DNA from: Verrucomicrobiia bacterium
Lineage (GTDB): Bacteria; Verrucomicrobiota; Verrucomicrobiia; Limisphaerales; UBA8199
Length of the DNA stretch: 64,000 nucleotides
Assembly: GCA_035946615.1 (NCBI GenBank)
Contig: DASYZB010000150.1
Span: 1-64,000 of the forward strand
Reading direction: 5' to 3'
The notes below the pieces were generated by a model. That model was not told the DNA's origin and searched no databases. It saw nothing but the letters and a program-made list of their open reading frames with translations. This document shows positions 6,567 to 24,328 of this stretch, piece by piece. The position numbers were made by a program, and so were the translations under genes. Within the stretch, counting starts at the first letter, position 1. Each line of letters opens with the position of its first letter.

Positions 6567-6648
6567 GTCCCTCCGGGACTTTTGTCTCATCTCGGGCTCA
6601 AACCCAACGCTGAAGCGTTGGGCTATTCTCGGGTGTCCCTCCGGGACA
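6567..6648. repeat. REP-like palindromic element, copy 1
   Basis: Two copies of GTCCCTCCGGGAC (6567-6579 and within 6634-6648) flank a perfect 20-base palindrome, CCCAACGCTGAAGCGTTGGG, at 6603-6622 that is followed by CTATT. The same three-part layout recurs at 8471-8551 and, reversed, at 8655-8734. It lies in the convergent spacer 6410-6691, which holds no gene. No REP-associated transposase is seen in the window. Confidence 0.8.
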
Positions 6649-8251: not shown

Positions 8252-8769
8252 GGCTCAGGAAAAGGAGCCCGGCTCGCGGGTGGACCGGATGTTGGCCCGC
8301 GTGCGGGACCGGCAGCCCGGCATCCGGTCGTCAGCAAATTCGATTCGCGCCGCGCGCCAATACATGCCGCGCACGATAGCTTTGCCCTTCCCGCCGCACA
8401 AGGAGGCAGAATGGATTTTTGAATTTGGATTTTGGATTTTCGATTTGCACCTGTGGGATGGAGTTCAGCCGTCCCTCCGGGACTGGATAGGTTTTGACGA
8501 CCGGTCCCAATGCTGAAGCATTGGGCTATTATCAAATGTCCCTCCGGGACAGGCTGCCGCTTGCGCTACCACACCAACATCGGGATTTTGCATTCTGCCG
8601 AAATCGCCGGCGGTTTCGGGATTTGAAAGACAAAGGGGTTTTAGTGGCAATGCTTGTCCCCGAGGGACATCCGACAATAGCCCAACGTTTCAACGTTAGG
8701 TGACATTTGGAGTTGCAATTAGTCCCGGAGGGACGGCTGAATGGGGCATGCCTCACCCAACGCCCATTG
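8252..8769. repeat. Repeat-filled spacer with REP-like copies 2 and 3
   Basis: This 518-base gap holds no gene. It contains the second REP-like element (GTCCCTCCGGGAC at 8471-8483, CCCAATGCTGAAGCATTGGG at 8506-8525, TGTCCCTCCGGGACA at 8537-8551). A third, reverse-oriented and more diverged copy has TGTCCCCGAGGGACA at 8655-8669, an AACGTTTCAACGTT palindrome at about 8684-8697, and GTCCCGGAGGGAC at 8722-8734. A low-complexity run rich in GGATTTT precedes them at 8410-8446, and a similar run is at 63908-63938. Confidence 0.8.
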
Positions 8770-20547: not shown

Positions 20548-21690
20548 TCAGACCAGTTTGGCCAGTAATTCCTCGTTGGTCTTGTGCTTCTTGAGCGCGG
20601 CTACCAGGGTTTCCATCGCCTCGACCGGGTTCAGATCGACCATCATACGCCGGAGTTTGCGCACGGCTTCGATTTGGTTTTTGGGGAAGAGCTTCTCTTC
20701 CTTGCGCGTGCCGCTTTTGGGGATGTCAATGGCCGGAAACAAGCGGCGGTCCGAGAGCTTGCGGTCCAGAATCAGCTCCATATTGCCGGTGCCTTTGAAC
20801 TCCTGGAAAATCAGTTCGTCCATGCGTGAGCCGGTATCGACCAGGGCGGTGGCGATGATCGTCAATGAACCGCCCTCCTCGATCTTGCGGGCGGAGGCGA
20901 ACATCTTGCGCGGTATTTCCAGCGCGCGCGCATCAACACCGCCGGTCATGGTGCGGCCGCTGCCGCCATGAACGCTGTTGTAGGCCCGGGCGACTCGAGT
21001 GATGGAATCCAGCAACACAAAAACATCTTTACCGGCCTCGACCATGCGGCGGCAACGCTCGATCATGAAACGGGAGAGGCGCACATGCGTTTCCAGGTCC
21101 TGGTCGTTGGACGAGGCGACCACCTCGGCTTTGACCGAGCGCTGGAAGTCGGTGACTTCCTCGGGCCGCTCGTCAATGAGCAACACGAGCACGAACACTT
21201 CCGGATGATTGGTTGTGATGGCATTGGCCATCTGCTTGAGCACGGTGGTTTTGCCGGTCCGGGGCGGGGCAACAATCAACCCTCTGGTGCCTTTGCCCAG
21301 GGGCGTGACCATGTCGATGACCCGCGTCTCGATCAGGTCCGGGCTGGTCTCGAGCCGGTATTTTTCAATCGGGTCGATCGTCGTCAGGTTTTCGAACCGG
21401 ACGGATTTGGTGTACTCCTCGAAGCGCATGCCGTTGACGCGATCGACCGCCTTGAGCTGGGGGCTATTGCCCCGGTGCGGCGGTTGCGTGGGGCCTTCTA
21501 CCAGGCTGCCTTCGCGCAAGAAATTGCGTTTAATGGTATCCGGTGTGACGAAGATGTCCGCCGGTTTTGGGTGGAAATGGTTCTCGGCCGTCCGGAGAAA
21601 ACCGAAGCCTTTTTCGGAGATTTCGAGGTAGCCGGCGCCGAAGTCGGCGGTTACAGGGCTGTTATTGTCGTGTTTGGTCGCTGTACTCAT
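20548..21690 (-). CDS. rho: Transcription termination factor Rho
   Basis: A 380-residue Rho. The RNA-binding cold-shock-like domain begins almost at once (GYLEISEKGFGFLR, DIFVTP, the Q-loop-proximal NPPHRG-like segment). The helicase core has Walker A APPRTGKT at 141-148, Walker B VLVLLIDERPEEVTDF at 167-182, the LLDSITRVARAYN R-loop and GGVDARALEIPRKMFASAR. It is about 40 residues shorter than Escherichia coli Rho and lacks the N-terminal helical bundle. Function in factor-dependent termination is certain from the core. It is isolated on the minus strand between the WYL gene and cysK. Confidence 0.97.
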   Translation of the reverse strand: MSTATKHDNNSPVTADFGAGYLEISEKGFGFLRTAENHFHPKPADIFVTPDTIKRNFLREGSLVEGPTQPPHRGNSPQLKAVDRVNGMRFEEYTKSVRFENLTTIDPIEKYRLETSPDLIETRVIDMVTPLGKGTRGLIVAPPRTGKTTVLKQMANAITTNHPEVFVLVLLIDERPEEVTDFQRSVKAEVVASSNDQDLETHVRLSRFMIERCRRMVEAGKDVFVLLDSITRVARAYNSVHGGSGRTMTGGVDARALEIPRKMFASARKIEEGGSLTIIATALVDTGSRMDELIFQEFKGTGNMELILDRKLSDRRLFPAIDIPKSGTRKEEKLFPKNQIEAVRKLRRMMVDLNPVEAMETLVAALKKHKTNEELLAKLV

Positions 21691-22892: not shown

Positions 22893-22974
22893 AAAGTTGT
22901 AAACAGTTAGAGCTTGGCTTTCGTTCGGTTAGGAGAATCTGTTACAACACTGTTAGTCAGGCAAGCCTATTTAC

Positions 22975-23014
22975 AAAACATAAAGCCCCTGCCCAACCTT
23001 TCGGTCGGACAGGG
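22975..23014 (-). terminator. Intrinsic terminator, minus strand
   Basis: On the minus strand CCCTGTCCGACC pairs with GGTTGGGCAGGG around a GAAA tetraloop (12 pairs, two of them G-U). The stem is followed by a broken U-tract (GCTTTATGTTTTG). The plus strand has no T-run after the stem, so it points to a minus-strand transcript coming from 23.8 kb. Confidence 0.75.
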
Positions 23015-23815
23015 ACTAAATGGGGGATGGGAGTTCGCCAAGCTCTCTTTCCCGTGCTGGCATTGGGCGCCCCGCAGGGCTGCCAGCTTCCCGACGCTAT
23101 TCTCCACGGCAAGCGGAGTCTTCGGCCTCGTAGCAGGGCCGTCCAGCGCCTTGCGGCCGCTGAATTATCGAGTGAGGCTTTTAAGCTCGCTTGGGCTGGT
23201 GGTTGCGCCACCGGCTTGCGAACCAGGCAAAGACACGTTTGTGCCTGCTTGTCCGCGTCTTCACCACGATGCTCCGGGTCTGCCGCCGCTTTTAGCAGCG
23301 CGTTCGCCCGGCGCCACGGGTCTCGCCTCTTCTCTCTCAGGTTGCCTTTCACCACAAGCCAGCGGTAGCGTTTGTACCATCGCCGGCGTTTCGGAAGGTT
23401 TTCACGGATCCTGCCTAGATCCCGTGCCCTTCCCGGCCCGAGCTCTCACTTTGTCCCGCCTTTCGGCGTCTTTCCTTTGGCTGACCCAAGTTTTTGGTGC
23501 CGCCAGAGCCGCTCGTCCGTGCTGATGCACAGTAGCAACCGGATACCCTCTGGGTAACTGCGATTGGCCCGGGCTCGAAACTGGCCCGGACGACTTGACT
23601 CGGCTCAGAGCGGTTTCTTATCGCGCCTTGCCGCACAGTTCCTTTTTCGCGTGTACTGACGATGCGCGAACACCGCCAGAGGAACTGGTGAATCCTGCCT
23701 CCACCGCCGGACCTCGCGGCCCGGTTTCAAGAGGGGCTGAGCCAACCAGCCTGACTCAACCTTTCCCCAGTTACCTGGGATTATCTTTGAGACATCCAGC
23801 CGCAATCTGTTGACT
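22975..23815 (-). ncRNA. Candidate large structured non-coding RNA, unclassified
   Basis: About 840 bases without a convincing protein gene, dense in short perfect hairpins, many closed by GNRA-type tetraloops on the minus strand. Examples are CCCAG-GTAA-CTGGG (23766-23779), CCGGGCC-GCGA-GGTCCGG (23707-23724), CGCC-GAAA-GGCG (23457-23468), GTGC-ATCA-GCAC (23519-23530), TACCC-AGA-GGGTA (23544-23556) and GGTGG-CGCAA-CCACC (23196-23210). A CAGTTCC/GGAACTG pair joins 23636-23642 to 23680-23686. It ends in the terminator at 22975-23014. I looked for the conserved cores of RNase P RNA, tmRNA, group I and II introns and found none. The 203-codon plus-strand frame across it has no family resemblance. 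The 5' end is a guess. Confidence 0.45.
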
Positions 23816-23889
23816 GCCGTTGGAGCATCTCAGTGCTTTCAATGAACTGGCCACAGCTTATCAAAAATTCGTGAGCATACAATGAAAAC

Positions 23890-24033
23890 TTATGCACAGA
23901 ATTATTCACCAAATCCCGCCTGTCAGTTCTTTGTGAATAATTCATTTCCCTCCGGTAAATTCCGATTCAAGTGTGGCTGCCTCGCCGGAATTATTCACCG
24001 TCCGGCAGCTTCAACTCCTGCGGCTGTGAACAA
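23890..24033. other. Putative replication origin: DnaA-box cluster
   Basis: Two sites match TTATNCACA exactly: TTATGCACA at 23890-23898 (plus) and TTATTCACA at 23932-23940 (minus). Three have one mismatch: TTATTCACC at 23902-23910 and 23991-23999 (plus), and TTGTTCACA at 24025-24033 (minus). Genes to the left run mostly on minus and to the right mostly on plus, as for leading strands leaving an origin. dnaA itself is not in the window. The 11-mer GAATTATTCAC and its reverse also form an inverted pair at 23899-23943. Confidence 0.4.
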
Positions 24034-24217: not shown

Positions 24218-24328
24218 CTATAGGGGAAGGCTGGGTTGCTTTTTTTTCGTTTTTCCGGCGATTTTTTTGCGTTTTAGATAAGCCTTCAGGCGTTTTCGCT
24301 TCTCGACCTTGTTGTATTGCTTGCTCAT
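24218..24328 (-). CDS. Small lysine-rich basic protein (36 aa)
   Basis: A complete 36-codon gene, ATG at 24326-24328 to TAG at 24218-24220. The SD sequence GAGGAAG lies nine to ten bases upstream. The product starts MSKQYNKVEKRKRLKAY and continues LKRKK with further Lys runs; about half of all residues are Lys or Arg. Small basic proteins of this style occur in Verrucomicrobia and relatives, which suggests a nucleic-acid or ribosome-binding role, but that is inference. It lies between the DnaA-box cluster and a divergent lipoprotein gene. Confidence 0.75.
   Translation of the reverse strand: MSKQYNKVEKRKRLKAYLKRKKIAGKTKKKQPSLPL

Follow-up and report, generated by a model that had tools for sequence, protein, structure and literature searches.

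The stretch between positions 22975 and 23815, upstream of cysK in 64,000 nucleotides of a Verrucomicrobiia contig (the window), raises the question of what some 840 bases dense in hairpins and free of any evident protein encode. The original prediction, made from the letters alone, was a large structured RNA on the minus strand that might be new or a diverged form of a known RNA, with RNase P RNA kept as an option.

The locus encodes a full-length MISL RNA

A scan of the window with all Rfam models assigns positions 23030-23786 of the minus strand to MISL RNA (RF03079), the match covering model positions 1-751 with 581.1 bits (E 7e-176) against a family cut-off of 274.6 bits. The minus-strand RNA is a full-length MISL, another member of a catalogued class, and the source genome carries a single copy. 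The search against Rfam, proposed at the outset as a test that could refute the candidate, thus returned a strong match to a known class, which disposes of the suggestion that the RNA may be new and leaves intact the claim that it is real. The other identities considered, namely RNase P RNA, tmRNA, SRP RNA and group I or group II introns, are rejected because a scan of 22900-23900 at permissive E values returned nothing besides MISL; ARAGORN likewise found no tmRNA. In the open-access literature, we encountered the phrase 'MISL RNA' only in the Ribonanza preprint (PMC10925082) and found no function or phenotype for it. Elsewhere in the window, there are two matches to the Acido-Lenti-1 RNA (RF01687), at 6603-6648 and 8506-8551 on the plus strand, which score 47 and 43 bits, respectively, and are separated by about 1.9 kb.

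Folding energy and covariation agree with the Rfam match in supporting a large structured non-coding RNA. The minus strand at 22975-23849 folds with -390 kcal/mol (z = -6.7 relative to 20 dinucleotide shuffles, 0 of which were as low), and projection of the Rfam structure onto 31 homologues leaves 89% of the cells paired, with changes on both sides in 119 of the 169 base pairs and a covariation score of 0.377, compared to 0.169 for shuffled (0 of 500) and at most 0.094 for slid alignments. The tight hairpins noticed in the letters are confirmed, and the long-range CAGTTCC/GGAACTG pairing (23681-23687 with 23636-23642) proves to be a genuine element of the family, helix 5, which is paired in 95% of the cells and shows both-side changes in 5 of its 8 pairs. 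The terminator that had been placed at the end of the RNA is also conserved, a comparable hairpin and T run lying 3' of nearly all homologues. The impression that the region encodes no plausible protein was correct as well: length differences among the homologues are not divisible by three, and the stop-free stretches vary and share no frame, so that a protein-coding reading is rejected.

Comparison of about 54 homologues indicates that the RNA extends some 62 nt upstream of the start of the Rfam model. The helix that closes this 5' domain abuts the first modelled base, and 5 of its 7 pairs have changed on both sides. For the two helices tested, the covariation score is 0.438; shuffled alignments give 0.166 and slid alignments 0.131 at most. 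The first 11-15 nt differ between groups, reading GTTCATTGAAAGAAC in the order to which the source genome belongs (Limisphaerales), GTTCCTTGATAGAAC in Opitutaceae, and GATCTTTGACAGAA or GTTCTTTGACAGAAC elsewhere. Thus, the locus shares with RF03079 the full length of the model and a fold backed by covariation, whereas the Rfam model lacks both the 5' domain, including the boxA-like element described below, and the terminator. Constructs trimmed to the Rfam ends would therefore be devoid of a conserved helix of the 5' domain.

Table 1. Features of the MISL locus in the window
Feature	Position	Strand	Basis or remark
Intrinsic terminator hairpin, GC-rich, followed by a T-rich run to ~22972	22984..23017	-	
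Rfam-modelled part of MISL RNA	23030..23786	-	581.1 bits and covariation
5' domain not covered by the Rfam model, closed by a helix of TGAGA (23828-23832) and TCTCA (23788-23792)	23787..23832	-	Covariation
boxA-like element GTTCATTGAAA at the predicted RNA 5' end	23837..23847	-	rRNA-leader boxA matrix, rank 1 of 37,978 positions
Extended -10 element TGATAAGCT of predicted sigma-70-type promoter	23855..23863	-	TGnTAnnnT in ~20 homologues of the order; predicted
-35-like element TTGTAT (TTGTCG/TTGTTG in relatives)	23877..23882	-	Conserved block; predicted
DnaA box TTATGCACA	23890..23898	+	Paired with 23902..23910
DnaA-box-like site TTATTCACC	23902..23910	+	Paired with 23890..23898
DnaA box TTATTCACA	23932..23940	-	
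DnaA-box-like site TTATTCACC	23991..23999	+	
DnaA-box-like site TTGTTCACA	24025..24033	-	Several relatives have this variant upstream of dnaA
Small Lys/Arg-rich ORF, 36 aa, MSKQYNKVEKRKRLKAYLKRKK...	24218..24328	-	Order-wide conserved upstream neighbour; outside MISL

A predicted promoter preceded by DnaA boxes

The MISL promoter is predicted to be of the normal extended -10 type. Throughout the order, the layout consists of TTGTyG, a spacer of 16-17 nt, TGnTAnnnT and another 6-8 nt before boxA, from which we predict that transcription starts at about 23848 and that the RNA measures approximately 870 nt. The original prediction was therefore right about the RNA and wrong about its 5' limit, the predicted start being located about 34 nt past the end that had been assigned to it.

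Upstream of this promoter, sites resembling DnaA boxes are strongly concentrated. Defined by at most one mismatch to TTATNCACA and counted from -300 to -60 (240 nt), they reach 12.1 per kb in the order, 10.4 in Opitutaceae and 11.7 in the remaining families, compared to 0.35, 0.14 and 0.30 per kb, respectively, in the flanks, so that the zone upstream of MISL is 34-76 fold denser. The numbers of sites seen in these three groups (63, 55 and 28) compare to 3.3, 1.4 and 2.1 in dinucleotide shuffles, that is, 146 versus about 7 altogether. Most commonly, 2-5 such sites lie upstream of the promoter, at differing genomic locations and in many cases with an 11-bp spacing; in 18 of the 22 homologues from the order, a box occupies a constant position relative to the promoter, and the MISL alignment has TGTGNATAA directly upstream of the -35 element. 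The corresponding intergenic place of relatives that have no MISL contains 1 site in about 14 kb; the boxes thus travel with the MISL gene and are lost together with it. Nevertheless, the boxes are not needed everywhere, given that in each of two genomes with two MISL copies, the second, divergent copy (L094 and L104) lacks DnaA boxes while retaining boxA.

The identity of the protein that binds these sites is predicted from their form. The commonest form at MISL is TTATTCACC rather than the textbook TTATCCACA, and a regulator other than DnaA might recognize the TTATTCACM motif. We consider this doubtful because TTATTCACA, TTGTTCACA and TTATTCACT occur upstream of dnaA in the very genomes that carry MISL, where TTATTCACC is found too. 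Places with two sites within 30 nt are rare, 21 in 40 genomes, and 7 of these are MISL promoters; another (G005:C83:250-269) lies upstream of dnaA and has the same 11-bp-spaced pair as MISL, and a reversed control pattern gave no such places. The MISL promoter thus resembles the dnaA promoter of these bacteria in the type of boxes and, in G005, in their spacing, and differs from it in carrying a higher average number of boxes and in preceding a gene for an RNA rather than a protein. In Opitutaceae, a further paired place, TTATTCACAAGTTATCCAC, was observed away from both dnaA and MISL (L608, at 176.7 kb in G332, and L612, at 697.7 kb in G179).

The boxes could also belong to a replication-control locus, either an origin or a titration or reactivation site akin to datA or DARS, which MISL would merely adjoin, or at which its transcription would serve to shape the local DNA structure, with less importance for the RNA product. 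The clustering of the boxes with a spacing of about 11 bp is what such a site might display, and the pair at 23890-23910 is one of only two paired places in its genome, in which the contig with dnaA has single boxes. However, the RNA itself is strongly conserved and covarying, beyond the boxes, and the boxes keep their distance from the promoter in the order. Furthermore, in two finished genomes, MISL is at neither switch of GC skew: sign changes fall at about 1.4 and 3.5 Mb in G332 and at about 2.5 and 5.2 Mb in G376, and MISL at 3.14 and 4.09 Mb, respectively, as judged from 20 sampled places with a resolution of 200-300 kb and with a noisy signal near 3.5 Mb in G332. An oriC at MISL is thus unsupported at this sampling, and we regard a replication site in which the RNA is secondary as quite unlikely.

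A boxA-like element at the start of the RNA

The leaders of rRNA operons in these bacteria contain boxA elements that read TGCTCATTGAAAATTG, TGCTCTTTGAAAATTG, GGTTCTTTGAAATTTA or similar, and most of them lie 120-160 nt 5' of the 16S gene. A matrix of 12 columns built from 20 rRNA leaders only, with the tested genome left out, was run over both strands of each MISL locus (median 35,980 positions per locus). The best match within 100 nt upstream of MISL ranked first in 28 of the 54 loci and among the top five in 50; three loci (L067, L088 and L100) had ranks of 15-27, and in G423 (L111) no boxA was found with this matrix within that distance. Four genomes (G003, G005, G006 and G036) have the unusual form CATTGAAA in both the rRNA leader and MISL. 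Identity of the two elements was predicted for Opitutaceae as well and was not found, their MISL form GTTCCTTGATA being two positions off their own rRNA-leader boxA GTTCTTTGAAA. The assembly of the source genome has no 16S gene or leader and, hence, offers no rRNA boxA of its own for comparison. By likeness, the 5' element of MISL is a boxA, and Nus factors would be expected to bind it.

In MISL, this boxA lies within a GUUC/GAAC palindrome, which could mean that the element is simply a structural hairpin, with GUUC and GAAC flanking a loop, and that its likeness to boxA is due to chance. Indeed, 97% of the cells can pair, and rRNA boxAs do not read in this manner. Yet the palindrome shows no compensatory changes and its loop is conserved equally with its stem, so that a covarying hairpin is unsupported and covariation does not tell whether it pairs. 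Moreover, a matrix derived independently from rRNA leaders picks out this element, and divergent homologues with GATCTTTGACAGAA have a broken palindrome and an intact boxA. A chance resemblance is, in our judgment, improbable, and we favor boxA.

Long untranslated RNAs are natural targets of Rho, and the presence of boxA at the very start of MISL would make sense for this reason. In E. coli, boxA binds NusB/NusE, blocks Rho termination in rRNA and has other roles, and the survey describing these did not consider non-coding RNAs (PMC5725501). The similarity to an rRNA operon leader, in which boxA serves NusB-S10 antitermination, consists in a boxA-like element opening a long, untranslated, structured RNA and in the lineage form shared by the above four genomes; unlike such a leader, MISL comes without rRNA, has a boxA embedded in a palindrome and shows no boxC-like GTGCGA. 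The boxA of enterobacterial suhB (PMC5725501) is likewise located outside rRNA; in contrast to MISL, it represses a protein gene. The MISL strand also carries, 3' of cysK, a gene for a Rho-like transcription terminator protein (20548-21690), whose proximity to an RNA with boxA is suggestive; in other families, this gene is not conserved beside MISL.

Distribution, genomic neighborhood and transcription

MISL was detected in at least 26 of the 58 genomes sampled from the order and in at least 31 of the 388 sampled from the phylum. In a pattern scan with one genome per species, all named sources among the matches listed are Verrucomicrobiota, including Opitutaceae, Pedosphaera/Limisphaerales, Puniceicoccaceae, Akkermansiaceae and Haloferula, and 2 records are titled only 'bacterium'. 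MISL thus appears to be common in Verrucomicrobiota, rare members elsewhere being outside the reach of the scan. Among the carriers is a cultured bacterium, Haloferula rosea (L213).

The MISL gene is free-standing because its neighbors differ between families, with no common orientation, and because it has its own terminator; no conserved partner gene was found across families. In the order, the usual site is between the gene for the small Lys/Arg-rich protein and, often, cysK. The small protein is not a partner of MISL; it is the product of an order-wide core gene, kept in 30 of 35 relatives without MISL (three of the 35 have MISL remnants or an incomplete copy). At 36 aa, this ORF is missing from ORF lists that start at 50 aa. 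The description of the RNA as lying upstream of cysK holds as geography, with cysK downstream on the same strand behind the MISL terminator. That MISL might act on cysK as a leader or cis-regulatory element, as this arrangement, shared by the window and several relatives, would allow, has next to no probability, considering that the terminator closes the RNA ahead of cysK, that other genes on either strand are 3' of MISL in other families, and that a relative without MISL retains cysK.

In that relative (G008, L128), cysK follows the small Lys/Arg-rich gene by 167 nt, leaving a clean empty site. In two other genomes (L112 in G012 and L113 in G023), MISL is reduced to its final ~145 nt (model positions 605-750) and the terminator, located directly behind the small gene, with cysK or a response-regulator gene downstream; these remnants may be fossils or, alternatively, a 3' domain put to new use. 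Together with the patchy presence of MISL, the empty site and the remnants suggest that MISL was lost several times, or was gained at one place and then lost. Its absence from about half of the sampled relatives indicates that it is dispensable across the order.

Evidence of transcription comes from metatranscriptome contigs of a viral collection. In four of these (L263, positions 1-1100; L266, 1-600; L443, 1-450; L444, 1-260), MISL sequence at the 5' end of the contig is joined to phage sequence, MISL being cut at four different positions and reaching close to its 3' end in L263. Genes for ssRNA-phage maturation and coat proteins are present in three of the four, two of which (L263 and L443) have a replicase gene as well. 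Because the life cycle of RNA phages does not pass through DNA, at least these three contigs derive from RNA, and they show MISL to be transcribed in the expected sense. An internal MISL segment fused to the 5' end of a different RNA is the product expected from template switching by reverse transcriptase; the contigs are probably such chimeras, although a real recombinant may be involved. We accordingly do not take MISL for a phage RNA, and 18 other RNA-phage contigs with long leaders had no Rfam match. A template-switch origin, if true, would mean that MISL is abundant.

A model of MISL expression and its implications

Taken together, these observations favor, with a probability of roughly 0.65, a free-standing gene for a structured RNA of about 870 nt that has its own, probably DnaA-controlled, promoter, antitermination of the rRNA type and an intrinsic terminator. 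Under this model, RNA polymerase would start at the predicted sigma-70-type promoter, near 23848, and the DnaA-box cluster upstream would probably place transcription under the influence of the replication initiator DnaA. The transcript would open with a boxA resembling those in the rRNA leaders of these bacteria, on which NusB-S10, by analogy with rRNA, would keep Rho off the long untranslated transcript and help it to fold, until the intrinsic terminator ends transcription at about 22975. MISL would then most likely be a stable, folded, growth-linked RNA that acts in trans, alone or with proteins, rather than a cis regulator of a neighbor.

In its size, ornate and conserved structure and single-gene organization, MISL resembles OLE, ROOL and GOLLD, orphan RNAs with unknown or partly known functions (PMC12286853). 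The MISL locus differs from these in having no sequence match to their Rfam families. To our knowledge, neither a DnaA-box promoter nor a boxA has been reported for any of the three. The MISL family itself was already known, and we found no description of its control region and 5' domain.

The finding that MISL has a home at the level of the phylum, with H. rosea as a cultured carrier, provides a setting for experiments on this RNA, and boxA and the DnaA boxes indicate the likely timing and mode of its expression, as well as candidate proteins, namely NusB-S10, Rho and DnaA. The size and conservation of MISL suggest an important role. Tentatively, we propose as one possible role that MISL is a phylum-wide RNA of Verrucomicrobiota wired to replication initiation through its DnaA-box promoter and to transcription of the rRNA type through boxA, and that it may thereby link chromosome replication with growth or ribosome production.
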